Source of the DNA: Bdellovibrionales bacterium
GTDB taxonomy: Bacteria; Bdellovibrionota; Bdellovibrionia; Bdellovibrionales; UBA1609
Direction of reading: 5' to 3'
NCBI GenBank assembly: GCA_020628165.1
Contig: JAHDFM010000002.1
Location: forward strand, 155,271 to 199,806
DNA length: 44,536 nt
Below the pieces are notes generated by a model. That model did no database searches. It was not told the origin of the DNA and was given only the letters and a program-made list of their open reading frames with translations. Made by a program: the position numbers and the translations under genes. This document shows, piece after piece, positions 20,453 to 32,540 of the stretch (position 1 is its first letter; the number at the start of each line of letters is the position of its first letter).

Positions 20453-22261
20453 TCAAAGCTCAACATCTTTAAAATCTTTCTGAGCATTTTTATACTGCTG
20501 AACATAGAGTCCTTTATATTCACCATCTTTTTGAATGAGTTCATCATGACTGCCATACTCACAAATCTCGCCGTTTTTTAGAAGCAAGATATTGTCGGCA
20601 TTAACAATGGTAGAAAGACGGTGAGCAATAATAATACTAGTACGGTCTTTGGTGATCTCATCCGTCGCCGCCTGAATGAGTCTTTCGGTATGAGTGTCAA
20701 TGTTAGCCGTGGCTTCATCTAAGATAAGAATGTCTGGATCAAAGGCGATCACTCGAGCAAAAGCAATGAGTTGTTTTTCTCCAAGACTTAAATTGCTCCC
20801 ATTTTCTTCGATGAACTTATGAGGGTCAGGGGACTTATTTTGACGCTCCAAAAGGTACTCACACTGAACTTTCTTTAGTGCCTCTCTGGCAGTTTCATGA
20901 CTGATGTTTTCATTTAACAAAGTGATGTTGTCCTCCAAGCTTCCTTTAAAAATAAAGTTATTTTGTTGTAACACGATCAAGTGGTTGCGCAGTTGCTTAG
21001 GGGAGTATTTGTTAATGCAAGCTCCATTTATAAAAATAGAGTTATCTGTCACAGGATAAAATTTTTGCAGTAATGAAACCATGGTGGATTTGCCACTGCC
21101 AGTGCGCCCAACAATCGCTAAGCTTTCTTTGTTACGAATTTTTAAATTCACATCTTTAAGTACTAAAGGCAGGTGCTCCTCATAGCGAAAGTTCAAACTG
21201 TTAAGCTCAATTTGTCCTTGAAATACTTGGTCAGAAATCAAAGATGTTTGTTCTTCAATAGGTACGGCAAGAAGATCGAAAATCCTGTCTGCACTGGCTA
21301 AGCTACTTTGAAACTGGTTGTAGCGTTCAATGATTCCGCGAAGAGGTCTAAAAAAGCTACGTAATAATAGAACAAAGGCACTTAGAGTCCCTATTGTCAA
21401 ACCATACTTCGTGTAAAACAAAGCACCCACTCCTATGGTGACAGAAGTGATTACAATATTAAATAAATGTAAACTCGGCCACATCAAAGCAAACACTTTA
21501 ATGAGTGAAAAGTTATGGTCGTAGTATTCGCCCGTCATGTCTCTAAATTTTTTAAAGGTTGAGTTTTTGTGGTTGTAGAGCTTAATCACTTTCATGCCGC
21601 TGATGCTTTCAGAGGTGTGCGTGTTTATGTTCGACATTTTACCTTTAGCTAAGCGTGAAAAGTGGCGAATCTTTCGACTCAACTTAATACTGATGACTAC
21701 TATGATGGGTGAGAGGACAATGGTCACTAAAGCTAAGCGAAAAGAGAGTAACATCAAAGTCACAAAAATAGAGATGATCTCAACAATATTGACGAGAATA
21801 CCAGTGAACCCTTGGGTGAGAAAGTCACCAAGCCCATTTACATCGTTGGTCATGCGTGTAAGCACTTTGCCAACAGGTGTTTTGTCAAAATACTGAATTT
21901 TAAGCTTTTGGACGTGATTGACCACTTCCTTGCGGACGTCGTAAAGAACACGGTTAGAAAGTTTTTGACTCAAATAAAACTGCAGGAAAAAAAATAAAGA
22001 ACGAGTGCACTCAAATCCTAGGTAGGCCAGAGCGAATAAATGCACATAATTCAGGTTTTTTTCTTTTAAGCCAAGATCAATGGCTTTGCCAAACACGATA
22101 GGAAGAGCACGCCCTGCAACTGTGAATATAGCCAAAGATAAAAACACAAAAAACAAATGCAGCTTGTACTGTTTATAAAAAGGAAGCAGCTTTACTAGAA
22201 ACTCCCAGATTTTGTACTCTTTTTTAACCTCTTCACTGGTATTGAGTTGGGATGCGCTCAT
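20453..22261 (-). CDS. ABC exporter half-transporter, catalytic partner
   Basis: A 602-residue half-transporter of the MsbA/MdlB type: six membrane helices in about 1-330, then an ATPase domain. Walker A is VGRTGSGKST, the Q-loop VLQQNNFIFKG, the signature LSLGEKQLIAFARV, Walker B ILILDEATANID with its catalytic Glu, and the H-loop IIAHRLST. This half has the complete catalytic Glu-His pair. The start overlaps the end of the upstream half-transporter by 4 bases, so the two make a heterodimer. The substrate is unknown; MdlAB- and BmrCD-like pairs export lipids or drugs. Confidence 0.88.
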   Translation of the reverse strand: MSASQLNTSEEVKKEYKIWEFLVKLLPFYKQYKLHLFFVFLSLAIFTVAGRALPIVFGKAIDLGLKEKNLNYVHLFALAYLGFECTRSLFFFLQFYLSQKLSNRVLYDVRKEVVNHVQKLKIQYFDKTPVGKVLTRMTNDVNGLGDFLTQGFTGILVNIVEIISIFVTLMLLSFRLALVTIVLSPIIVVISIKLSRKIRHFSRLAKGKMSNINTHTSESISGMKVIKLYNHKNSTFKKFRDMTGEYYDHNFSLIKVFALMWPSLHLFNIVITSVTIGVGALFYTKYGLTIGTLSAFVLLLRSFFRPLRGIIERYNQFQSSLASADRIFDLLAVPIEEQTSLISDQVFQGQIELNSLNFRYEEHLPLVLKDVNLKIRNKESLAIVGRTGSGKSTMVSLLQKFYPVTDNSIFINGACINKYSPKQLRNHLIVLQQNNFIFKGSLEDNITLLNENISHETAREALKKVQCEYLLERQNKSPDPHKFIEENGSNLSLGEKQLIAFARVIAFDPDILILDEATANIDTHTERLIQAATDEITKDRTSIIIAHRLSTIVNADNILLLKNGEICEYGSHDELIQKDGEYKGLYVQQYKNAQKDFKDVEL

Positions 22262-24033
22262 ATCGGCCCCCCATCAATTTGACTTTTATAAATGCTTTTG
22301 TAAGTGCTTGAGTCTTGCATAAGTTGATTGTGGTTGCCGACAGCTTCAACTGCACCATCATTGAGAACATACACACGGTCGGCCAGTTTTAAACTCGCAA
22401 GTTTATGGCTAATTATAATAACGGATAAATTGTGCAGACGTTTTTTGATGGCATCAATGATGAGCTTTTCAGTGTTGGCATCGATAGCACTGAAGGTGTC
22501 ATCTAAGATGAGCAGGCGAGTGTCACGTATGAGTCCACGTGCTAGGGCAAGACGCTGACGTTGTCCGCCTGAAATATTGATGCCCTTTTCGCCTAAAACA
22601 GTTTTGTGCTTTTTGTCCATCTTTTCAATTTCATCGTTGATCTGAACCGTTTTGAGCACATCAATGACGTGTTCTTGTTTTTTCTCAGTGGAGAGAAGAG
22701 TGTTGTTAAAGATATCGTCACTGAACAAAAAGGTGTCCTGAGGCACATAAGTGATAAAGTTATGAATGGACTCTTGGGTGAAGTCTTGGATGTTCTCACC
22801 ATTAATTAAAATTTGACCTTTTTCAGTGGGATAAAGTCCTGAGATCAGATCTGTGATTGTGGATTTACCGGACCCTGTTTTGCCTAAGAAGCCAATGATT
22901 TCTCCAGGCAAAATTTTAATATTGATGTTAGTAAGTTGGAACGGGCTTTCTTGTTCATGTTTAAAATTTAAATTCTTCAGCTCAAATGATTCAAAAGCGC
23001 TCAACGTTTTTGTGCCTAAATCTGGAGTTTTATTGTCTTCACTTAAAAGTTCCGTCACACGGTCAATGGAAGCCATGCCTTTTTGCCAGAAGGTGAGGCC
23101 TATACCAATGGCCGCCATGGGCCACATCATTTTTTGCAAGTATTGATAAAAAGATAGAAGAGCCCCAATAGTGAGAGTGCCACTAAAAACGTCATCAGCA
23201 GCAAAAAATAATAGGATCACACAGCCTATAGAAACACTGAGTTCTAATGTTGGTGAGAAGGCAGCATCGAGTTTGGCGACTTTGTTGGCGTACTGTTCCA
23301 GCTTTTTACTTTCGTGATTGAATTTCTTTTCATAATTTTTTTCTTGGGCAAAGGATTTAATAGTTCTGATGCCAGAAAGAATTTCTTGCGTGGTCGCAGA
23401 CAGCTCAGAAAATTGATTTTGTTGCTTTTTATAATACTCATGTATCAGCTTTTCTATGCGAGCAATGACAAAAGGAATCACTGGTAAGAAGATCAGCGTT
23501 TTCCAGGTTAAAGACGGCGATAAATAAATCATCAGAGGTATGACAAAGGCGGAAATAAAAAGGGCATCAAGCAATACCAAAACACCAGGTCCAATCGCCA
23601 TACGGAAGGCATTGACGTCATTGTTAATTAAACTCATCAATTTGCCGATAGTGTTTTTTTGAAAAAACTTTTGGTCTAAGTTTAAGTACTTACTAAAAAT
23701 TTTATCTTTGAGGTCTCTTGCGGCTCCATGAGAGTACTGACCCCACTGAATTCGCCAGGCGTATCTAAAAACGGCAATGGTTAACGCGATCACTACTAAC
23801 AGAGATAACAGTCCGAAGGTTTTGATGAACGGCTCACCTTGGCTAATCTGATCAACGGCCATACCAACAAGCAGTGGTGGTAGCGCATCGAGGCCGTTAG
23901 TAAAAAGTAATGAACTGATACCAAATATAAACTTGCGTTTATTTTTCCGGACATAAAAATGAAATGGCTGCTTGGCCATGATTTTACTTTCATTTATATG
24001 TTTATGAATTGCTTTCGTTTCCCCACCCAACAT
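22258..24033 (-). CDS. ABC exporter half-transporter, degenerate-site partner
   Basis: The first gene of the exporter pair, 591 residues with six membrane helices and an ATPase domain. Walker A is LGKTGSGKST, the signature ISGGQRQRLALARG and the H-loop IISHKLAS. Walker B reads LLILDDTFSAID: Asp replaces the catalytic Glu, which is the usual mark of the degenerate site in heterodimeric exporters such as TM287/288 and BmrCD. One ATP site of the pair should thus hydrolyse slowly or not at all. The ATG at 24033 has no ribosome site. The in-frame ATG at 23979 (MAKQPFHFYV) has GAAAG 7 bases ahead and is a realistic alternative start. A weak promoter (TTGTTC, 17 bases, TAATTT at 24043-24071) would fit the later start better. 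Confidence 0.87.
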   Translation of the reverse strand: MLGGETKAIHKHINESKIMAKQPFHFYVRKNKRKFIFGISSLLFTNGLDALPPLLVGMAVDQISQGEPFIKTFGLLSLLVVIALTIAVFRYAWRIQWGQYSHGAARDLKDKIFSKYLNLDQKFFQKNTIGKLMSLINNDVNAFRMAIGPGVLVLLDALFISAFVIPLMIYLSPSLTWKTLIFLPVIPFVIARIEKLIHEYYKKQQNQFSELSATTQEILSGIRTIKSFAQEKNYEKKFNHESKKLEQYANKVAKLDAAFSPTLELSVSIGCVILLFFAADDVFSGTLTIGALLSFYQYLQKMMWPMAAIGIGLTFWQKGMASIDRVTELLSEDNKTPDLGTKTLSAFESFELKNLNFKHEQESPFQLTNINIKILPGEIIGFLGKTGSGKSTITDLISGLYPTEKGQILINGENIQDFTQESIHNFITYVPQDTFLFSDDIFNNTLLSTEKKQEHVIDVLKTVQINDEIEKMDKKHKTVLGEKGINISGGQRQRLALARGLIRDTRLLILDDTFSAIDANTEKLIIDAIKKRLHNLSVIIISHKLASLKLADRVYVLNDGAVEAVGNHNQLMQDSSTYKSIYKSQIDGGPI

Positions 24034-24145
24034 TCGATCATCAAATTAACAAATGATCACAGTGAGAACAAGAAAGTATTGGGTTAGATTTTTTTTAAAT
24101 TTAAATTGGAGTGTCGGAGAACTTGGGAGATTTGAACTTAGATTA

Positions 24146-24177
24146 ATTACAGGGCGAAGTTTTTTTCGCCCTGTAAT
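24146..24177 (-). terminator. Strong 13-bp hairpin, probable terminator of the protease gene
   Basis: ATTACAGGGCGAA (24146-24158) pairs without a mismatch to TTCGCCCTGTAAT (24165-24177) around a six-base loop. It lies 68 bases past the protease stop. The GC-rich half should stall polymerase, but no U-run follows on the minus strand, so termination may be imperfect or the stem may protect an mRNA end. Confidence 0.5.
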
Positions 24178-24182
24178 ATTGT

Positions 24183-24232
24183 TAGCAATGTTTAAGTGAT
24201 GAATAGTAAAGCAATTTCACTTAGCATTGCTA
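24183..24232 (-). repeat. Second, longer hairpin directly after the protease gene
   Basis: TAGCAATG plus TTAAGTGA (24183-24199) pairs with TCACTTA plus CATTGCTA (24217-24232): about 15 base pairs plus one G-U pair, with one bulged base, around a 17-base loop. It begins 13 bases after the stop codon and stands in tandem with the hairpin at 24146-24177, a layout suited to mRNA 3' stabilisation or double termination. Confidence 0.45.
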
Positions 24233-24244
24233 TAATAAGTTTTT

Positions 24245-25735
24245 TTAGTTTGAATTAATTAAATTACTAACACTCAGCTTGCCTTCAGAAGTGGCTTTAC
24301 CTCTAAGTGCAGAAATTGGTTTCGCTGAATTGAGGATAGCATCTTTCACTTCTCTCCAGCTTTTATTAGGGTTCATAGCCCAGTAAAGCGCAGCCGCTCC
24401 TGAAACATGAGGTGCTGCCATAGATGTTCCATCCCAAGTTCCAAAACCGCCCACTGAGTCAGAGTAACCATTGCCTACAGTTGTTGAGAAAACCTTGACT
24501 CCAGGAGCTCCAATATCAACGGTTTTGCGGCCCCAGTTAGAAAATGAACCCAAACGATCGCTGCTGTCGATAGCGGCAACACTGATGATGTTTTCCATAT
24601 CATAACTGGCTGGGTAAGCCGGTTGGCTATCGGTATCGTTGTTGTAACCACGTCCTTGTTTACCGTTTCCTGCAGCTGCTATGAAAAGGGTGTTCTTTTC
24701 TTGCGAGTAAGTGATGATCTCACGTAAGGCTCTGTTGCCTTCAGCATCATTTGGATTTTCACCCACAGACCCCCAAGAGTTTGATGTGATATGAGCTCCA
24801 TTATCAACCGCGTACTTAATAGACTTTACTGCGCCGGCTGTTGTACCACTACCTTTTTCACTTAAAAACCTTAAGGTCATGATTTGCACATTTTGGGCAA
24901 CACCTGAAATTCCGATGCCATTGCCACCACGAGCACCGACATTACCAGCACAATGTGTTCCGTGACCAGGGTTTCCTCCAAAGGCTCCACCTTTTAAATC
25001 GTATGGCTTATTATCATTGCTAACAAAGTCCCATCCAATCACATCATCGACAAAACCGTTGCCATCGTCATCAATGCCGTTGGTGGCTTTATCTTTGCCG
25101 TTTTCGTCAGTACCAGTCTCACCAGGGTTTCTCCATAGGTTGCCGACAAGATCTTCATGGGTGTAATCAACTCCCGTGTCGATGACAGCTACAACGATGT
25201 CGTTATCGATTGGGCCCTTATCCCAAATCTCTTGCGTGCCGATGTCGATCATTCCCCATTGCTTATCAATAAGAGGATCTGAACCCGTGTCCGGGTTAGT
25301 AACAATGTCAGGAATGGCAGGGTTGTCGCCAGACGAACCACCGCCGCCTCCGCCACCACTGCCGTCATCTGGTGGAAATAAAATATCGCAAAACTCTTCA
25401 GGAATCGGTTCTGGGCAGTTTTCAGGACGCATAGGTTTTTGCGCAAGGCTTGGGTTATCATAGAGTTTAATTTTGTAGTTCGGTTGTACGTACTCAACGC
25501 TTGGGTTTTGTTTGAGCAAATGAAAGTGACTCATTATAGAAACACTTTCAGGAAGAGTGACTTGCACCCAGTTATTGAATTCAAGATCGTTCACTTTTGT
25601 TCCCAGCGGGAAATGACTTTGAATTTGGTAAGTGTTGATATCTGAGTGTGCTTTGAGTTTCACAATGTAGTCATTGTGTTCTGCGATTGATTGCCATGAA
25701 AATATAATCAGGCAAGCCATTAAAATGTGTTTCAT
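24245..25735 (-). CDS. Secreted subtilisin-like serine protease (S8) with propeptide
   Basis: A 496-residue exported protease. The signal peptide is about 1-18 (MKHILMACLIIFSWQSIA). An I9-type inhibitory propeptide follows (about 21-92, including DYIVKLKAH and VEYVQPNYKIK). A Cys- and Pro-rich linker with a Gly-rich run lies at about 104-140. The catalytic domain shows Asp186 (VIDTGVD), His258 (GHGTHCAG), oxyanion Asn357 (AAAGNG) and Ser438 (GTSMAAPHVSG). The triad is complete. The stretch 219-236 (NGIDDDGNGFVDD) looks like a calcium-binding insert common in this family. The start has AAGGAAGGG upstream, and a sigma-70 promoter sits 33 bases before it. It ends with no further domain. A role in degrading prey or external protein fits, but is inferred. 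Confidence 0.92.
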   Translation of the reverse strand: MKHILMACLIIFSWQSIAEHNDYIVKLKAHSDINTYQIQSHFPLGTKVNDLEFNNWVQVTLPESVSIMSHFHLLKQNPSVEYVQPNYKIKLYDNPSLAQKPMRPENCPEPIPEEFCDILFPPDDGSGGGGGGGSSGDNPAIPDIVTNPDTGSDPLIDKQWGMIDIGTQEIWDKGPIDNDIVVAVIDTGVDYTHEDLVGNLWRNPGETGTDENGKDKATNGIDDDGNGFVDDVIGWDFVSNDNKPYDLKGGAFGGNPGHGTHCAGNVGARGGNGIGISGVAQNVQIMTLRFLSEKGSGTTAGAVKSIKYAVDNGAHITSNSWGSVGENPNDAEGNRALREIITYSQEKNTLFIAAAGNGKQGRGYNNDTDSQPAYPASYDMENIISVAAIDSSDRLGSFSNWGRKTVDIGAPGVKVFSTTVGNGYSDSVGGFGTWDGTSMAAPHVSGAAALYWAMNPNKSWREVKDAILNSAKPISALRGKATSEGKLSVSNLINSN

Positions 25736-26004: not shown

Positions 26005-27303
26005 CTATAATTTATTTTGGGCAGTATTTAATACGAGGTCGTTCTCTGGTCGAATGGTGATACTGGCCGTGGGTTTGATCTCTTCTATATGTGAACTGGA
26101 AATATCATAATTTTGATATAAGTCTCTAATGATGCAAACAAGTTCTGTCATGGCCATTTCTCTACCAATGCAGGCGTGTCGCCCAAAACTAAATGGGAAG
26201 TAACTGAATGGTACTATTTTAGTCTCATTTAAAAAACGTTCAGGCATAAAGTCTTCAGGTGATGACCAGTAGTTTTGATCTCGATGAGTTATATATTGGC
26301 TCACCCACACGAGAGAACCTTTAGGCAATATCACCCCATTAATATCGACATCTTTAATCACCACTCTCGATCGAAACCAAGATGGGGGATACAAACGCAT
26401 GGCTTCTTCAATGCATGCTTTGATGTAGGGGTAAGTCTTATAAAGATCATTGATTTTTTCTGAGGGTTGACTCTTTAAAGCCTCTTTTTTTACAAGCTGT
26501 GATTTTTCTGGATGTTTTAATAACAAATAAATCGTCCAAAACAAAGCGTTCACTGTGGTTTCAAACCCTGCTAAGAAAAAAGTCAGTGACTGGCGGTGTA
26601 TTTCGTTTTGTTCTAGGGCAGACTTTAAGAGCACATCTGAATAAAAGTTAAGGTTCTTATCATTTGATTTTGTGGTGCTCGACTGAGTGAGCTCTTCAAT
26701 GTAATTAAAAAATAAGTTTTTCTGTTGTTTAAAAGTTCGATTGTTTTTATTAGGCCACCAAAAAGGAGCGGGGAACTTAGAAGACCCTCTTTTCAAAACG
26801 TAATCTGTCATAATGTTAATGGCATCAACAATTTCTAATTTTTTAAAGTTGTCCACTCCAAATAAGACTTTGAGAACCAAATCGTAAACCACTTGGGTAG
26901 ATAATTTTTGTAATGAGACTTTTGGTTTACCAGAGAGAGTGTTTTTCAAAGACTCTGTGCTCGTTAAACTGATATCAGTTAAAATTTTATTGAGTGAAGC
27001 GCGAGTAAAAAAAGATTGTGTGTATTTCTTTTGTCTGAGCCAGGTGGGACCACTCGATGTGAGTAAACTTTCTCCTAACCCTAGTTTTAATCCTTTTTCT
27101 TTTTCGTAGTGATCCCAATTTTCAGTCAGAACCTTTTTGATGTCCTTTGGGGCATTAAAAAAGTAAACTTTTTTGGGGCCTAACTTAAAGGTGAATGTGT
27201 TGCCATGGCTGCGCACATTGCGTTCTAAAAAATCAATTGGGTCAGAAAGAACATCGTTGGCCGAGCCTAAGAACATTTGTCCTTTAACATGGGGTAAAGT
27301 CAT
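26005..27303 (-). CDS. Cytochrome P450 monooxygenase
   Basis: A 432-residue heme-thiolate monooxygenase. Visible motifs: the oxygen-activating I-helix AGFETT (245-250), the K-helix ExxR (Glu300, Arg303) in EEAMRLYPPSWF, PERF (354-357) and the heme loop FSFGRHACIG with axial Cys378. All are intact. There is no N-terminal membrane anchor, so it is probably soluble and needs separate ferredoxin and reductase partners, none of which are nearby. Residue style (LYPPSWF, FLAGFETT) resembles the CYP102/CYP4-like fatty-acid group more than small terpene P450s, but I cannot give a CYP number. It is the last gene of the seven-gene operon and overlaps the upstream acyltransferase by 4 bases. Confidence 0.92.
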   Translation of the reverse strand: MTLPHVKGQMFLGSANDVLSDPIDFLERNVRSHGNTFTFKLGPKKVYFFNAPKDIKKVLTENWDHYEKEKGLKLGLGESLLTSSGPTWLRQKKYTQSFFTRASLNKILTDISLTSTESLKNTLSGKPKVSLQKLSTQVVYDLVLKVLFGVDNFKKLEIVDAINIMTDYVLKRGSSKFPAPFWWPNKNNRTFKQQKNLFFNYIEELTQSSTTKSNDKNLNFYSDVLLKSALEQNEIHRQSLTFFLAGFETTVNALFWTIYLLLKHPEKSQLVKKEALKSQPSEKINDLYKTYPYIKACIEEAMRLYPPSWFRSRVVIKDVDINGVILPKGSLVWVSQYITHRDQNYWSSPEDFMPERFLNETKIVPFSYFPFSFGRHACIGREMAMTELVCIIRDLYQNYDISSSHIEEIKPTASITIRPENDLVLNTAQNKL

Positions 27304-27923
27304 AAGTCGGCGCCCTTTACAATGGTATGTGCTTTCACACAGGCGTTATCTTTAATTTGAGTGCCCAATTGTAAAATGGAGTTGCCACCGACAGTGCAAT
27401 GAGCACCAATCACAACAGGTTTAAGGTAAAGGGTGAATTCATTGCGATTTTTAGTTTTGTTTATGAAGTGGGAGCAAATCTTTGTTCTCATACCTAAAAG
27501 AGTGTGGTCGCCAATTTCTAAAAAAGGGCGATCGACAACAATGCACTGTGGGCTCCAGAACACCCCTTTTCCAATTTTGGCGCCCCAAAGTCGCAGCCAC
27601 GCTGAGTACAAACCAGGAATGTATCTAATGGTTTCCTCGATGGCGGGGTACTTTAAAAAAGGGGTTTGTAGTTGAACGCTGAGCCACCAACAGACAAAAA
27701 CCTTGTCGTTTGATGGGTATTTTGATTGCGAGAGCTTAACATTGAATAAAAGAACACGAGTCAAAAGTGGTGGTAATAATAACAACCAAATCAAAAATGT
27801 CACAATCGCTCCACTCACACTAAAATGAGTGTAGCTTTGCCAAAGCAAGATCACTAGAAAAATTAAATTCATAAAGTAAAAATTATTTATAAAGTACATG
27901 ATCGCCCAGTTAATAACTTTCAT
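27300..27923 (-). CDS. Hexapeptide-repeat (left-handed beta-helix) acyltransferase with membrane N-terminus
   Basis: A 207-residue protein. Two hydrophobic segments occupy about 10-60 (FYFMNLIFLVILLWQSY, then AIVTFLIWLLLLPPLL). The C-terminal half, about 112-207, is a run of imperfect hexapeptides (KIGKGVFWSP, IGDHTLLGMRTKI, VIGAHCTVGGNSIL, GTQIKDNACVKA) that form a left-handed beta helix, as in WcaF- or serine-acetyltransferase-type enzymes. A likely catalytic His lies in ICSHF. Known relatives transfer acetyl or longer acyl groups from CoA. It starts directly after the GH3 stop with no gap and overlaps the P450 gene by 4 bases. A role in capping or acylating the operon's product at the membrane is inferred. 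Confidence 0.72.
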   Translation of the reverse strand: MKVINWAIMYFINNFYFMNLIFLVILLWQSYTHFSVSGAIVTFLIWLLLLPPLLTRVLLFNVKLSQSKYPSNDKVFVCWWLSVQLQTPFLKYPAIEETIRYIPGLYSAWLRLWGAKIGKGVFWSPQCIVVDRPFLEIGDHTLLGMRTKICSHFINKTKNRNEFTLYLKPVVIGAHCTVGGNSILQLGTQIKDNACVKAHTIVKGADL

Positions 27924-29462
27924 TTATAACCTCAGTGCCTGTGTTTCAAAAGACGTGGGTTTGATATCGCCCAATTTAATACCTTGTTGCAGTTTGAGCT
28001 GTTGATATTTTTGGAAGCCCTCAGTCACATGGATCACTTTTAAAGTGTTAAGTTGTCCAAGTTTCAAACACAAATCATAGTGGGGGTTTTGCTTCAGGTA
28101 GTTTTCAGTGGCATTACGGAATTCTTGCTTTGTTGTTTCATTGTCATCTGACTCTAAATACAAGTGATACTCTGGTTGAGGTTCTTTTGTTGGAGCGATG
28201 AGTGCAAACTTATATTTTAGTTGAGTCTCTTCATGTGCTTTACGTAGACAATCACTGACAAATTGGCTATTGAGTTTTTCGCCGGCCATGTCAGACACCT
28301 TATCAAGCTTTCCTTTGTATGAGATAAGGGGAGTGTTATGTAAAAAGCCATCACAAGTGATGACATCTTTAAGGTGATACCTGTAAAGTCCCGCAGAGGT
28401 CGTGAGTACCAGGCTGTAGTCGCCGCCCTTTTTCAGTTCATGAGCCAGCAGAGGTGTCTGTGTTTCAATGTTTTTGTTCAGATCTAAGAATTCAAAAAAA
28501 TGAGATGTGTAAGCTAAAATTTTATTGCTATTAAACGGAAAAGAAACAATCCCTTCAGTTGCCGCAAGTCCTTTTTGTTCAAACTGAAAATCAGGTAGCC
28601 TTCTTTTTAGCTGTTGGTAATAGTCAGTAGATTCACCGTCAGCCCAACACGAAATGATTTTGAGTTTCGGCCAGATAATTGGCCATGGGTTTTTTGACGA
28701 TAAGGCCCGTTCAATTTCTTTTCGTCGCTGTTTTTTTAATAGTGGTGCCAGGTCTGACCAGAGTTCGTGTATTTTGTTGAGAAGGTTGTCTAAAAAAGTC
28801 GGGCTCCATACAGAAACAAATCCAAGGTTTTTAGCTTTGAGTAAATGATAACAGGTTTGTCGCTCCCACTCTTTAAAAGATTCGATCTGAGAAATTGTGG
28901 TGGGTGTGGCAAACACAAATCGACTTAAAACTTTGCCAGCAAAGCCAAGGTAATTGGAGTCATCTTGTAAGCCCACAGGAATACCGGCATAACTTTCAAC
29001 AGTTGAAAAATTGGGTGAAATGGACCAATAACTCCGACTGGATAATAAACTTGGGTTTTTTTTATAAAGTTGATAAAGCCAGGGGGCCGTTGCCATTTGG
29101 ATGTCTTTAAAAAAGCTTTGGGTCATTGGAATGTATTTAGCTGAATCAGTGCTGCCACTGGTTTTTTCAAACAGCACAACTTTTTCTTGAGTGAGTTCAT
29201 CGAGCTGACCTGATTTAAGTTTTTCGATGTGAGTTTTAAAGTTGTCGTAACTTCGGAGAGGAACCGTCTTTTGGTAAGCTTTGACATCAGCAATATTTTT
29301 AAACTGATACTTACAGCCAAATTGACTGCCTTGATTATTGGCGAGAGTTTGTTTGAGGATCTGCTCTTGAGTGTTTTGTGGAGATGACAAATTTTTGCAA
29401 AAAAATTGGTATTTTTTTTTGAGGCTGGCCATATAAATTTTTTGTAAAGCGTAAGTCATCAT
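27924..29462 (-). CDS. GH3-type acyl-adenylating amide synthetase
   Basis: A 512-residue enzyme of the GH3 branch of adenylate-forming ligases, the family that in plants joins carboxylic acids such as auxin or jasmonate to amino acids. ATP-binding motif I is LFEKTSGSTDSAKYIP (97-112). Motif II reads LAATEG (299-304). Motif III is YRYHLKDV (360-367), the bacterial form of YRVGDV. Length and order fit the family, and all three ATP motifs are present. Substrate acid and amine cannot be told from sequence. Partners in the operon are two oxygenases, a desaturase-type enzyme and two acyltransferases, so a modified fatty or isoprenoid acid is a reasonable guess for the acid. It starts 14 bases after the Rieske gene. 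Confidence 0.85.
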   Translation of the reverse strand: MMTYALQKIYMASLKKKYQFFCKNLSSPQNTQEQILKQTLANNQGSQFGCKYQFKNIADVKAYQKTVPLRSYDNFKTHIEKLKSGQLDELTQEKVVLFEKTSGSTDSAKYIPMTQSFFKDIQMATAPWLYQLYKKNPSLLSSRSYWSISPNFSTVESYAGIPVGLQDDSNYLGFAGKVLSRFVFATPTTISQIESFKEWERQTCYHLLKAKNLGFVSVWSPTFLDNLLNKIHELWSDLAPLLKKQRRKEIERALSSKNPWPIIWPKLKIISCWADGESTDYYQQLKRRLPDFQFEQKGLAATEGIVSFPFNSNKILAYTSHFFEFLDLNKNIETQTPLLAHELKKGGDYSLVLTTSAGLYRYHLKDVITCDGFLHNTPLISYKGKLDKVSDMAGEKLNSQFVSDCLRKAHEETQLKYKFALIAPTKEPQPEYHLYLESDDNETTKQEFRNATENYLKQNPHYDLCLKLGQLNTLKVIHVTEGFQKYQQLKLQQGIKLGDIKPTSFETQALRL

Positions 29463-29476
29463 TTTTTAAATCACCT

Positions 29477-30478
29477 TTAAAGGAAAAACTCTGCTTTTAA
29501 AATTTTATTAGGCATAGCTTTTTTTTGTATACGAAAGTGATTTTCATACTGATATTTTAAGTAGGTTGAGGCTAAGTCACTTTTTTGCATATATGCGGGT
29601 TGTTTGCTGGTTCTTTTTCTGTTTTCTTCTTGGCTTGCTAAGATCTTACGGTCTTGCTTGATAATTTTGTCTGTAATGTATTTGAGAGCTAAATTTAAAA
29701 GCGGACCTATCAATTTGGCCTTTATGCCACAGCTGATAATAACTTGAGTGCGCTCCTCGTCGATGGGCACCGCGTGCAAATAAGTGAGGTGATGAATATT
29801 GCCGTAGTGATAATTCACTTCCAAGGAATAAGGACCTTTGTACTCATCTGTGTGCGCAACACCTGAGTTCATACCTGGTATGAGTCGGCCCACAAAACTT
29901 TTGATGTTTTGTTCTTCGACGGTGGTGACCTTAACTCCCATCTCAGTGAACTCAATGTTTGAAGTTACCTTTTGATGGGGTTGTGACCGGTAAAGGCCGC
30001 TATGAACAAAGCAAGTGTGACTGCAGTCAAATCCGTTGTCTAGAATGGCAAGAGGTTGTGCTTTGATTTCATATTGAAAGTGAGACCAACTGTGACTTTT
30101 TAAGATTGGAAACTGTGGCTTAACAATATTTTCCTTGCCCCACTTGATGTAAATAAAGTCACCATCGTCATGGCAGTCATAAAACGAGGTTTTCACATTG
30201 TGTACGGTTTCAATATTGCATGGAATCTTTTGACACGCTCCTTTGCCATCAAACTCCCAGCCGTGATAAGGGCATTGAATATTGTCGTTGATGACTTTTC
30301 CATCTGATAGTGAAGCGAGCTTGTGCGGACATATGTCATCAAGAGCTTTGACTTTTTTTTGAGAGTCTCTGAACAGCACCAGGCTTTGTCCCATGATTTC
30401 TTTCTTGAGTGGCTTTTTTTTTAGTGTTCGACTGCGACACACTGACAGCCAAGTTGTTGTTTTTAGGTTTTTCATCAT
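29477..30478 (-). CDS. Rieske [2Fe-2S] mononuclear-iron oxygenase
   Basis: A 333-residue ring-hydroxylating-type oxygenase alpha subunit. The Rieske cluster ligands are Cys50 and His52 (ICPHKLASL) and Cys69 and His72 (CPYHGWEF). The mononuclear iron is held by His154 and His159 in DCSHTCFVH. The third, acidic ligand is probably Asp276 in IKQDRKIL, by likeness to KshA-type enzymes. Short single-component relatives act on sterols, chlorophyll breakdown products or methoxy aromatics. The frame stays open to an ATG at 30595, but that would run 116 bases into the upstream gene. The paired ATGs at 30478 and 30475 follow AAAGG by 7 bases and come one base after the upstream stop. A reductase partner is not encoded nearby. 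Confidence 0.88.
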   Translation of the reverse strand: MMKNLKTTTWLSVCRSRTLKKKPLKKEIMGQSLVLFRDSQKKVKALDDICPHKLASLSDGKVINDNIQCPYHGWEFDGKGACQKIPCNIETVHNVKTSFYDCHDDGDFIYIKWGKENIVKPQFPILKSHSWSHFQYEIKAQPLAILDNGFDCSHTCFVHSGLYRSQPHQKVTSNIEFTEMGVKVTTVEEQNIKSFVGRLIPGMNSGVAHTDEYKGPYSLEVNYHYGNIHHLTYLHAVPIDEERTQVIISCGIKAKLIGPLLNLALKYITDKIIKQDRKILASQEENRKRTSKQPAYMQKSDLASTYLKYQYENHFRIQKKAMPNKILKAEFFL

Positions 30479-30479
30479 A

Positions 30480-31268
30480 TCAATGCCTTTGCTCGATATC
30501 TTTGAGAGTTTTCTTTGAAATGAGCGGCAAAAGATTCCACTTACGTACGATTTTTTTGAGTGTACGGTAAAAGATATTGCAAAAAGTAAAAACATTTAAA
30601 TGCGACAAGCAGACAAGCTCTTCCCCTTTGAGGTGATTGGGGTTTTTAGAATTTAAAAACTGAACCTCGGGGAGTTTAAGAACACTTTGAGTGAACAAAG
30701 CTTTCGGATGAATGAATGTCACTTCTGAGGTTTGCGGTCGAACTACTCCTGTACTCTCGTGGTAACAAGAACCAAATTTATTTTTTGCTAACGAGTGCAT
30801 CAGCTCTTGTATTTTGTCTGGCGTTTTTGTTTTGTAATTGGGCCAGTAGTGGATGCTATTTTTTGCCATTATCAAATAAGTTTTATAACCCATGACAATG
30901 AGAAGCCAATAAAGTGGTGTGAATGGATTTTTTAACTTCCAAAATATAAATTCTTTGGCAAATTGAAAGTGGAGAGCTTTTTGTCCCCAGTAATCGGGAA
31001 GTATCATGGTGTCGCCCGAATAAAAAACTCCGTAAGTTTTGTTTTGAAAGGTGTGTTTGTAAATTTCTAACGTGGAAAAACCTTGAATGCTTTGGTCGCC
31101 AGTGTCTCTGCCGATAAAAATTTTCTGTTTGGCTTTAATGTCATTGAGGAATTCTTCTTTAGAAGTGTTTTGATAGTTTTGTGAATAGATCTGCCAAAGG
31201 CGATCCATTTCGTTGGGTTGAATGGTTGCTGTGAGTTGTGACTTCATTTTCAGTTTTTTAGATCTCAT
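30480..31268 (-). CDS. GNAT-like N-acyltransferase
   Basis: A 262-residue protein, probably of the GNAT fold. The stretch IFIGRDTGDQSIQGFSTLEI, then GVFYSGDTMILPDYWGQK and HFQFAKEFIFWKL, follows the order of a GNAT core, with the acyl-donor-binding turn near DYWGQKALH. A hydrophobic stretch (FTPLYWLLIVMGYKTYLIM) in the middle may lie against the membrane. The rest has no clear motif. The gene overlaps the desaturase gene by 11 bases and ends one base before the Rieske start. If the assignment holds, it could place an acyl group on an amine in the operon's pathway. The family call is the weakest of the operon. Confidence 0.5.
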   Translation of the reverse strand: MRSKKLKMKSQLTATIQPNEMDRLWQIYSQNYQNTSKEEFLNDIKAKQKIFIGRDTGDQSIQGFSTLEIYKHTFQNKTYGVFYSGDTMILPDYWGQKALHFQFAKEFIFWKLKNPFTPLYWLLIVMGYKTYLIMAKNSIHYWPNYKTKTPDKIQELMHSLAKNKFGSCYHESTGVVRPQTSEVTFIHPKALFTQSVLKLPEVQFLNSKNPNHLKGEELVCLSHLNVFTFCNIFYRTLKKIVRKWNLLPLISKKTLKDIEQRH

Positions 31269-32193
31269 AGCTTTCTCTTTGTTGTAGAGGTGTTAAGTTC
31301 TCTTGTGGCCAAAAGATCTCTTGCAAGGTAAACTGGCGTATGTAACTGATCCATTCATGCAATTGAACTTTGTGAGCCGGTTCAAACTCATATTTGTGAA
31401 GAGCATAATGGGGGAGGTTAGGCTGTCTGTGGTGTGCGTTGTGCAAATTGAAGTTGAGCAAAACCCAGCGGTCAATCAAGGGGTGAATGTAAATGGTTCG
31501 TGAATGTGGATTTTGTAATGTGACGGGCAAAGGCTTTTGGCGTTGTTTGTAAGATTTTAAGTTGGGCAGTAAGGCATGTTGACTTAGCAGAATAATGTCC
31601 GACGAAAAAAGAAAAAACAACCATGGCAATAAAAAGATCTGCAAGTAGGTCCACTGCAATAAAAACACAAGGGCTACATGAGCCACAATTAACAAAATAC
31701 AGCTCATGCGATACAGGTTGAGTTGGCTTTCATTGTGAGTGCTTAGTTTTAAACTTTCAGTGCTCCAAAAATTATTAGAGCCATGTACAAAAGAACAGAC
31801 GGGTAAACCTAAGCGCCAGCACGCTTCAAAAAAACGCAACTTCAAGGGGTGTGGTTTGTTTTTAAGGTAAAAATGAGTCGGGTCTTTGTCGTTATTACCA
31901 GTCCAGAGGTGATGGGCTTGGTGTTGATACTTCCAAGGAAAATATGGAATAAAAACGATCAAAGAGGCAAGGTGCCCTATTAGGTGGTTGAGTTTTCTTT
32001 GTTTAAAGTAAGAGTTGTGACCACAAGTGTGCAAAATTGAAAACCACGACCACATTAGACCACATAGTAAGGTTTGACCTAGGGCCCATGCTGGCAACGA
32101 TTGCAAACTTAAATAAAAAGCAAGAACACTCACACAGCTGATACCAACAAATGAAAGTAAAGATAACTTAAAAGACGTTTTAAGAGTTTGCAT
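31258..32193 (-). CDS. Membrane fatty-acid desaturase / hydroxylase
   Basis: A 311-residue di-iron membrane enzyme of the fatty-acid desaturase superfamily. All three histidine boxes are present: HTCGH (55-59), HQAHH (91-95) and HNAHH (251-255), with an extra His206 in LLSQHALLPN. Four to six hydrophobic segments surround them. These boxes bind the two irons that abstract hydrogen from an acyl chain, or hydroxylate it in the carotene-hydroxylase branch. The superfamily contains desaturases, hydroxylases and ketolases, and sequence alone does not choose among them. It starts 2 bases after the DUF962 gene and overlaps the GNAT-like gene by 11 bases. Electron donors are not encoded nearby. Confidence 0.87.
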   Translation of the reverse strand: MQTLKTSFKLSLLSFVGISCVSVLAFYLSLQSLPAWALGQTLLCGLMWSWFSILHTCGHNSYFKQRKLNHLIGHLASLIVFIPYFPWKYQHQAHHLWTGNNDKDPTHFYLKNKPHPLKLRFFEACWRLGLPVCSFVHGSNNFWSTESLKLSTHNESQLNLYRMSCILLIVAHVALVFLLQWTYLQIFLLPWLFFLFSSDIILLSQHALLPNLKSYKQRQKPLPVTLQNPHSRTIYIHPLIDRWVLLNFNLHNAHHRQPNLPHYALHKYEFEPAHKVQLHEWISYIRQFTLQEIFWPQENLTPLQQRESYEI

Positions 32194-32195
32194 AC

Positions 32196-32540
32196 TTAAC
32201 TCAACTGTACCTGCTGAGAGTATTTTTGGTTTGCTATCGCAACATGGTGGGAGTACTTGCCAGTCAGTACGTATATAAAAATCATAAACAAGTAGTACAA
32301 TGTTTGTGGGTGAAGAAAGTCTTTGCTGCGCACCTGACCGTCTTTAAATAAAACATGCCCAAGTGTTCCCAAGATTCCAGAAAGAGACAGCAACACAAGA
32401 TAAAGCCACTTTTGAGTGATCAATACATAAGCCAAGACGGCGATGTGAACTACAAAACTAAAAAAGTGAAAAACAAGATTGCCAGTTTTTTGATGTCGAT
32501 AAACAAAAAACTCCCACTCGGTCATGTTGTTTGGTTTCAT
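32196..32540 (-). CDS. DUF962 / Mpo1-like small membrane protein
   Basis: A 114-residue protein with three to four membrane helices. The start reads TEWEFFVYRHQKTGNLVFHF, which matches the His-rich entry motif of the DUF962 family; its yeast member Mpo1 is an iron-dependent dioxygenase that shortens 2-hydroxy fatty acids. A further LGHVLF and a C-terminal HHVA stretch supply more histidines. The frame is open to a GTG at 32555, but GGAGGGG 3-4 bases before the ATG at 32540 decides the start. As first gene of the seven-gene operon it could remove one carbon from a hydroxy acid or bind the lipid substrate. The family match is by eye and moderate. Confidence 0.55.
   Translation of the reverse strand: MKPNNMTEWEFFVYRHQKTGNLVFHFFSFVVHIAVLAYVLITQKWLYLVLLSLSGILGTLGHVLFKDGQVRSKDFLHPQTLYYLFMIFIYVLTGKYSHHVAIANQKYSQQVQLS

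Follow-up and report, generated by a model that had tools for sequence, protein, structure and literature searches.

The seven minus-strand genes analysed here (Table 1) are one variant of a multi-phylum gene cluster family, the core of which consists of a GNAT-fold protein, a GH3 acyl-acid amido synthetase and a Rieske oxygenase. The P450, the desaturase and the Mpo1-like protein are variable accessories. The enzyme superfamilies are known ones; what appears to be undescribed is their joint occurrence, the family of the GNAT-fold protein and the taxonomic spread of the clusters. These clusters would belong to a known kind, the GH3-dependent amide-forming pathways, and it is the cluster family at large, more than this particular set of seven genes, that is of interest. 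We lean toward the view that the GNAT-GH3-Rieske core supports a specialised pathway which would make an exported, lipid-like amide of an oxidised acyl group.

Table 1. Genes of the operon, in order of transcription; positions refer to the window, which is the whole 44,536-nucleotide stretch that was analysed
Gene	Assignment	Position	Strand	Evidence or remark
MPO	small membrane protein resembling Mpo1/DUF962; candidate iron-dependent dioxygenase	32196..32540	-	first gene of the operon
DES	membrane di-iron desaturase/hydroxylase	31258..32193	-	PF00487, 94 bits
GNAT	member of an unnamed family with GNAT fold; marker gene for these clusters	30480..31268	-	AlphaFold
RSK	Rieske non-haem iron oxygenase	29477..30478	-	PF00355, 89 bits; VanA_C, 36 bits
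GH3	acyl-acid amido synthetase	27924..29462	-	PF03321, PF23571, PF23572
HEX	hexapeptide-repeat acyltransferase with hydrophobic N-terminus	27300..27923	-	PF14602/PF00132, 31 bits
P450	cytochrome P450	26005..27303	-	PF00067, 242 bits; last gene of the operon

An earlier, sequence-only reading had placed seven closely packed minus-strand genes at 26005-32540 and proposed that they form one operon. All seven open reading frames are present at that place and on that strand, and their spacing bears out the operon. In the direction of transcription, MPO and DES are separated by 2 bp, DES overlaps GNAT by 11 bp, GNAT and RSK are 1 bp apart, a 14-bp gap precedes GH3, GH3 directly abuts HEX (0 bp), and HEX overlaps P450 by 4 bp, a range of -11 to +14 bp across the operon. 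The MPO gene starts at an ATG with a GGAGGGG ribosome site in front of it. The Rieske gene starts at the ATG at 30478, directly 3' of the GNAT stop; the mechanically called frame, which runs to 30595, overlapped GNAT. A gap of some 430 bp, in which a terminator-like stem lies at 32837-32820, separates the operon from the next gene upstream. Because promoter and terminator pattern matches in the window occur at the chance rate, it is the gene spacing that argues for a single transcript, and we infer that the seven genes are probably cotranscribed. The operon contains neither an exporter gene nor a redox-partner gene. Downstream of it (20453-25735) lie a subtilase that contains a poly-Gly stretch and a pair of overlapping ABC half-transporters, the pair being possibly a heterodimeric exporter; nothing ties these genes to the operon.

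The identities of the GH3, Rieske, desaturase and P450 proteins, as first read from the sequence, are confirmed by Pfam scores and by motifs. The key catalytic motifs of these four are intact, as had been claimed, and so are the presumed ones of the Mpo1-like protein. MPO scores 19.7 bits against PF06127, under the curated cut-off of 24, and carries HxxxxNxxxH and GH as candidate Mpo1-type motifs; its residues H16, N21, H25 and G61-H62 are invariant among six homologues in an alignment confined to cluster homologues. DES has three His boxes (HTCGH, HQAHH and HNAHH), by which, as by Pfam, a desaturase and a hydroxylase cannot be told apart; relatives of DES are present in clusters L039, L046, L074 and L077. 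The Rieske protein, the sole PF00355 match in the source genome (G000, a 3.19-Mb draft that is 99% complete), contains both metal motifs, CxH-x-CxxH and DxxHx4H, and the Rieske cluster motif together with a D/NxxHx4-5H iron site is intact in 109 of 109 homologues. The P450 has a heme-Cys loop (FSFGRHACIG), an ExxR motif (EAMR) and the I-helix motif AGFETT. Among its relatives listed at E values of 1e-40 or below across the phylum's 291 genomes, only that of congener G003 lies within such a cluster by position, and the P450 is a genus-level accessory of the cluster. G000 encodes three P450s and two PF00487 enzymes in all, both of the latter beside GH3 genes. This genome, whose contig C4 contains the window, is assigned to Bdellovibrionota on the basis of its relatives and of named matches.

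The marker protein of the family has no match in Pfam, NCBIfam or PHROGs. An alignment of 13 relatives contains 28 invariant columns, and the AlphaFold model (pLDDT 88.3, pTM 0.81) aligns by VIA-align to solved structures over about 155 residues with Z scores of up to 11.6 (NatD, GCN5) and of 10.7 for LasI. We confidently predict a GNAT fold for it, so the initial guess of a GNAT-like protein was right. The Q/RxxGxG/A acyl-CoA loop pattern was not found in the window protein, where YWGQKAL (YWGxxxL) stands in its place, with W94, G95 and L99 invariant among the aligned relatives. Since the canonical loop motif is missing, the sequence suggests that this protein may use an unusual donor. A paper on aminoacyl-tRNA-dependent GNATs (PMC2922099), consulted for a cluster of this kind, makes no mention of GH3.

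The N-terminal, central and C-terminal domains of the window GH3 all score above the Pfam cut-offs (126, 70 and 42 bits). The nucleotide motifs SGST and TTSAGLYRY are present. P-loop and motif residues are conserved in 66 aligned rows of the cluster clade, with K109, T302, E303, R361, Y362 and D366 invariant. The nearest solved structures are the plant amido synthetases AtGH3.12 and JAR1. A tree of 69 GH3s places every cluster GH3 in a single clade of 60 rows (support 100/99) that stands apart from OlsH-like GH3s, among them the second GH3 of the same genome, and includes seven rows assigned to none of the cluster layouts described below; the few outgroups are on long branches, and the boundary of this clade therefore deserves wider sampling. 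Within it, one branch sets off the layout II sequences (100/99) and another those of layout III (100/100), and layout I GH3s are spread over two sub-clades. The window GH3 groups with sequences from Myxococcota, Burkholderiales, Gammaproteobacteria and family f10.

OlsH is a bacterial GH3 that makes N-acyl-ornithine (PMC12493201), and it is the best NCBIfam name for the window GH3 (NF052613, an equivalog model). The operon might consequently be read as an ordinary ornithine- or amino-lipid pathway, in which GH3 is the OlsH equivalent and gives a lyso-aminolipid, HEX performs the second acylation like OlsI, and the oxygenases hydroxylate the head group or chains; the OlsH precedent and a layout II FA_hydroxylase that is closest to OlsE (58 bits) fit such a pathway. 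The window GH3, however, scores 77.3 bits against a curated OlsH cut-off of 620, and its place in the separate clade agrees with this score in rejecting its identification as OlsH. A second GH3 of the same genome (G000:C54, locus L052) is much nearer to OlsH at 220.9 bits and has lipid-synthesis neighbours, and the operon lacks an OlsI-type alpha/beta hydrolase. We consequently regard an ordinary amino-lipid pathway as unlikely. Locus L052 (1244-10328) is likely a separate aminolipid locus: its OlsH-like GH3 lies beside a second FA_desaturase, a thioesterase, two acyltransferases and a methyltransferase, with a CDP-archaeol-synthase-like gene and a PPDK_N/PEP-utilizer protein as further neighbours.

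The cluster family was recognised from GH3 matches in 148 related genomes, which led to loci where GH3, Rieske and GNAT genes recur together with varying order and partners. When the GNAT alignment was used to scan 84,980 species genomes, 240 stretches were confirmed. The taxa named in the record titles of the best 80 of these 240 include Bdellovibrionota, Myxococcota, Gammaproteobacteria, Burkholderiales, Planctomycetota and Sericytochromatia. Counts over the same best 80 are lower bounds, because many loci end at contig ends: GH3 is present in at least 58 and Rieske in at least 55, two AurF-like proteins in at least 30 and at least 24, the hexapeptide enzyme in at least 27, ferredoxin in at least 24 and FA_hydroxylase in at least 22. 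Two record titles call for comment. A metagenome-assembled genome titled 'Streptomyces griseus' (L121) carries the same cluster and appears to be mislabelled; it may represent G120, a same-order relative of the window genome. One titled 'Euryarchaeota archaeon' (L117) has a layout II fragment (Rieske, GNAT, SDR, AurF-like) for which misbinning is possible. In Aquabacterium, GNAT relatives (L125, L129, L132) have neither GH3 nor Rieske nearby, and that of L132 adjoins DUF3717/DUF1289 and two-component genes.

Across the 291 genomes of the phylum, GNAT is found in 65, GH3 in 88 and both in 50 (Fisher p ~3e-19, uncorrected for kinship between genomes). Physical linkage is pronounced, with 37 of 67 GNAT copies no more than 15 kb from a GH3 (about 0.6 expected by chance) and further linked GH3s below threshold in G311/L166, G090, G124, G035 and G068. 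The gene set thus does not stand alone. The sequence-only reading had named the same genes lying unlinked in close relatives as one finding that would refute it. In congener G003 six of the seven families remain clustered, though in another order, whereas two genomes of family f10 (G056, G065) have a GNAT-Rieske-second GNAT-CRTAC cluster with GH3 on another contig; GH3 linkage is therefore strong rather than obligatory. The cluster-clade GH3s of f10 (L033-L036; G065, G056, G073, G075) adjoin, in place of the GNAT-Rieske cluster, a PutA-like proline dehydrogenase/aldehyde dehydrogenase gene, identified by reading its sequence.

Three layouts recur among the cluster loci. Layout I (for example L054, L060, L096 from Pleionea sediminis, and L171) has the order GNAT-GH3-Rieske-second GNAT-(desaturase)-RnfD/FG-GAP/ASPIC protein, and an RND transporter frequently lies close by. 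The RnfD/FG-GAP/ASPIC protein, seen at L046 3367-6165 and L096 15685-18435, is a fusion of about 920 amino acids in which an NQR2/RnfD-like membrane part is joined to FG-GAP repeats and an ASPIC/UnbV domain, and it recurs in layout I clusters. The larger layout II (for example L048, L075 and L166) consists of Rieske-GNAT-SDR-AurF-like facing GH3-hexapeptide-FA_hydroxylase-Rieske-ferredoxin-AurF-like-(Mpo1)-Rieske, the two arms being co-directional in L126; here HEX homologues adjoin GH3. Layout III is GNAT-GH3-second GNAT, with HlyD and MFS genes downstream in Pseudomonas (L098) and PapA-like, HlyD and AcrB proteins downstream in Alcanivorax (L127).

The window operon is a mixed form of these layouts. 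Its closest counterparts are found in congener G003 (L039/L104), with GNAT-Rieske-desaturase-P450-condensation protein-GH3, a divergent Mpo1 gene nearby and no HEX; in a fragment from congener G001 (L037), with Rieske-GNAT-GH3; and in G170 from another family (L173), with 2OG-Fe oxygenase-desaturase-Rieske-GNAT-GH3-second protein with desaturase-like His boxes-Mpo1. Conservation of the exact seven-gene set is rejected, since in other clusters P450 and HEX are replaced by other genes or missing. The acyltransferase family differs across versions, being hexapeptide in the window, condensation-type in the congener and PapA-like in Alcanivorax. Exporters of the RND, HlyD/MFS or AcrB type accompany sister clusters, and their RND proteins are of the lipid type (HAE3/HpnN-like, with a weak HpnN match).

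The steps of the preferred pathway and their order can be proposed from the enzyme families. GH3 would adenylate a carboxylic, probably fatty, acid at the expense of ATP and couple it as an amide to an amine, which is probably an amino acid or derived from one. The GNAT-fold protein could then perform a second acyl-type transfer, perhaps from an unusual donor, after which the Rieske oxygenase would hydroxylate or trim the conjugate. In the window, DES, MPO and the genus-level P450 might carry out further oxidations, a role that in other layouts may fall to enzymes of the desaturase, Mpo1, AurF, FA_hydroxylase or P450 type. The hexapeptide enzyme would acylate the product, probably at the membrane, and the exporters of many versions may carry it out. 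Since sister clusters carry exporters, the product by analogy probably leaves the cytoplasm. Acyl activation and transfer, already named as themes of the gene set, are supported.

That the product is probably lipid-like is favoured by the desaturase, the Mpo1-like protein, the OlsE-like FA_hydroxylase and the RND partners. A point against a lipid scaffold comes from SxtDIOX and SxtT, the Rieske proteins of solved structure nearest to RSK, whose substrate is not a lipid. Along these lines, GH3 could form its amide from an amine and a small or aromatic acid, with the oxygenases decorating a polar scaffold, to give a small, non-lipid oxidised metabolite. Plant GH3 substrates are small hormone acids, DES weakly matches the model of the arginine hydroxylase GntB (25 bits), and AurF-like enzymes occur in layout II, all of which would suit a small metabolite. 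The Rieske similarity spans a broad enzyme family, however, and the membrane-type desaturase, the Mpo1-like protein and the hydrophobic hexapeptide protein of the operon, as well as the lipid-type RND transporters of sister clusters, count against such a product, which we consider rather improbable.

Rieske and P450 enzymes frequently have catabolic roles, and yeast Mpo1 shortens 2-hydroxy fatty acids. It is conceivable on these grounds that the Rieske, P450 and Mpo1 proteins degrade a fatty or aromatic compound taken up by the cell. Enzymes of the GH3, GNAT and hexapeptide types, however, spend activated groups on building conjugates, sister clusters carry exporters, and a Pfam scan of the operon found no CoA ligase, beta-oxidation or ring-cleavage gene, so that degradation or detoxification seems a very improbable role. 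Least credible is that the operon modifies a sterol, hopanoid or carotenoid of the cell's own making. The Rieske protein does match the SdmA model (66 bits) and 3-ketosteroid hydroxylase structures, and the HpnN match of the RND proteins points weakly the same way, but no match to squalene/phytoene synthase (SQS_PSY) or squalene-hopene cyclase was found in G000 by a search in which positive controls were detected. Such cell-made substrates are therefore unlikely and largely ruled out by this search, an imported one being still conceivable, and the isoprenoid acid offered by the sequence-only reading as one option for the scaffold is weakened.

A pathway that works without a polyketide, peptide or terpene synthase would probably be missed by mining tools built on those enzymes, yet the cluster family is present in three or more phyla. 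So far GH3 enzymes are associated chiefly with plant hormones and with a single bacterial lipid pathway; if the exported lipid-like amide is the correct reading, the clusters would take them into a new class of metabolites and would assign a function to an unnamed GNAT family. More tentatively, and with somewhat less conviction than doubt, we suggest that the clusters make an unrecognised class of amide lipids or lipid-like compounds in predatory Bdellovibrionota, myxobacteria and marine Gammaproteobacteria, with a GNAT that lacks the CoA loop and takes another acyl or aminoacyl donor. The product can be sought experimentally, since several carriers have been sequenced and are strains with names: Pleionea sediminis S1-5-21, with the order GNAT-GH3-Rieske-second GNAT-desaturase-CRTAC; Pseudomonas segetis CIP 108523, with GNAT-GH3-second GNAT-HlyD-MFS; P. 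benzenivorans DSM 8628; and Alcanivorax.

The open-access part of the literature yielded no described cluster with a GNAT-GH3-Rieske core, in keeping with the initial impression that no described pathway has this set, and one relevant paper, that on OlsH. The OlsH/OlsI ornithine-lipid pathway of Singulisphaera acidiphila (PMC12493201) resembles the window set in having a bacterial GH3 expected to form an amide by ATP-dependent adenylation, and differs in its OlsI-type hydrolase, which the window set lacks, and in having no counterpart of the added GNAT and oxygenases. The plant GH3 enzymes AtGH3.12 and JAR1 have the nucleotide-binding motifs in common with the window GH3, but the sequence alignment (E ~1e-12) spans part of the protein, and plants have no such oxygenase operon. 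SxtDIOX/SxtT and SdmA share the Rieske domain and mononuclear iron motif with the window protein at low similarity, and the partner genes of their pathways were not found in the window operon. NatD, GCN5 and LasI share the predicted GNAT fold over residues 2-230 (Z 10.7-11.6), but at 8-14% identity, and the window protein, which lacks the canonical pyrophosphate-loop motif, has invariant residues of its own.
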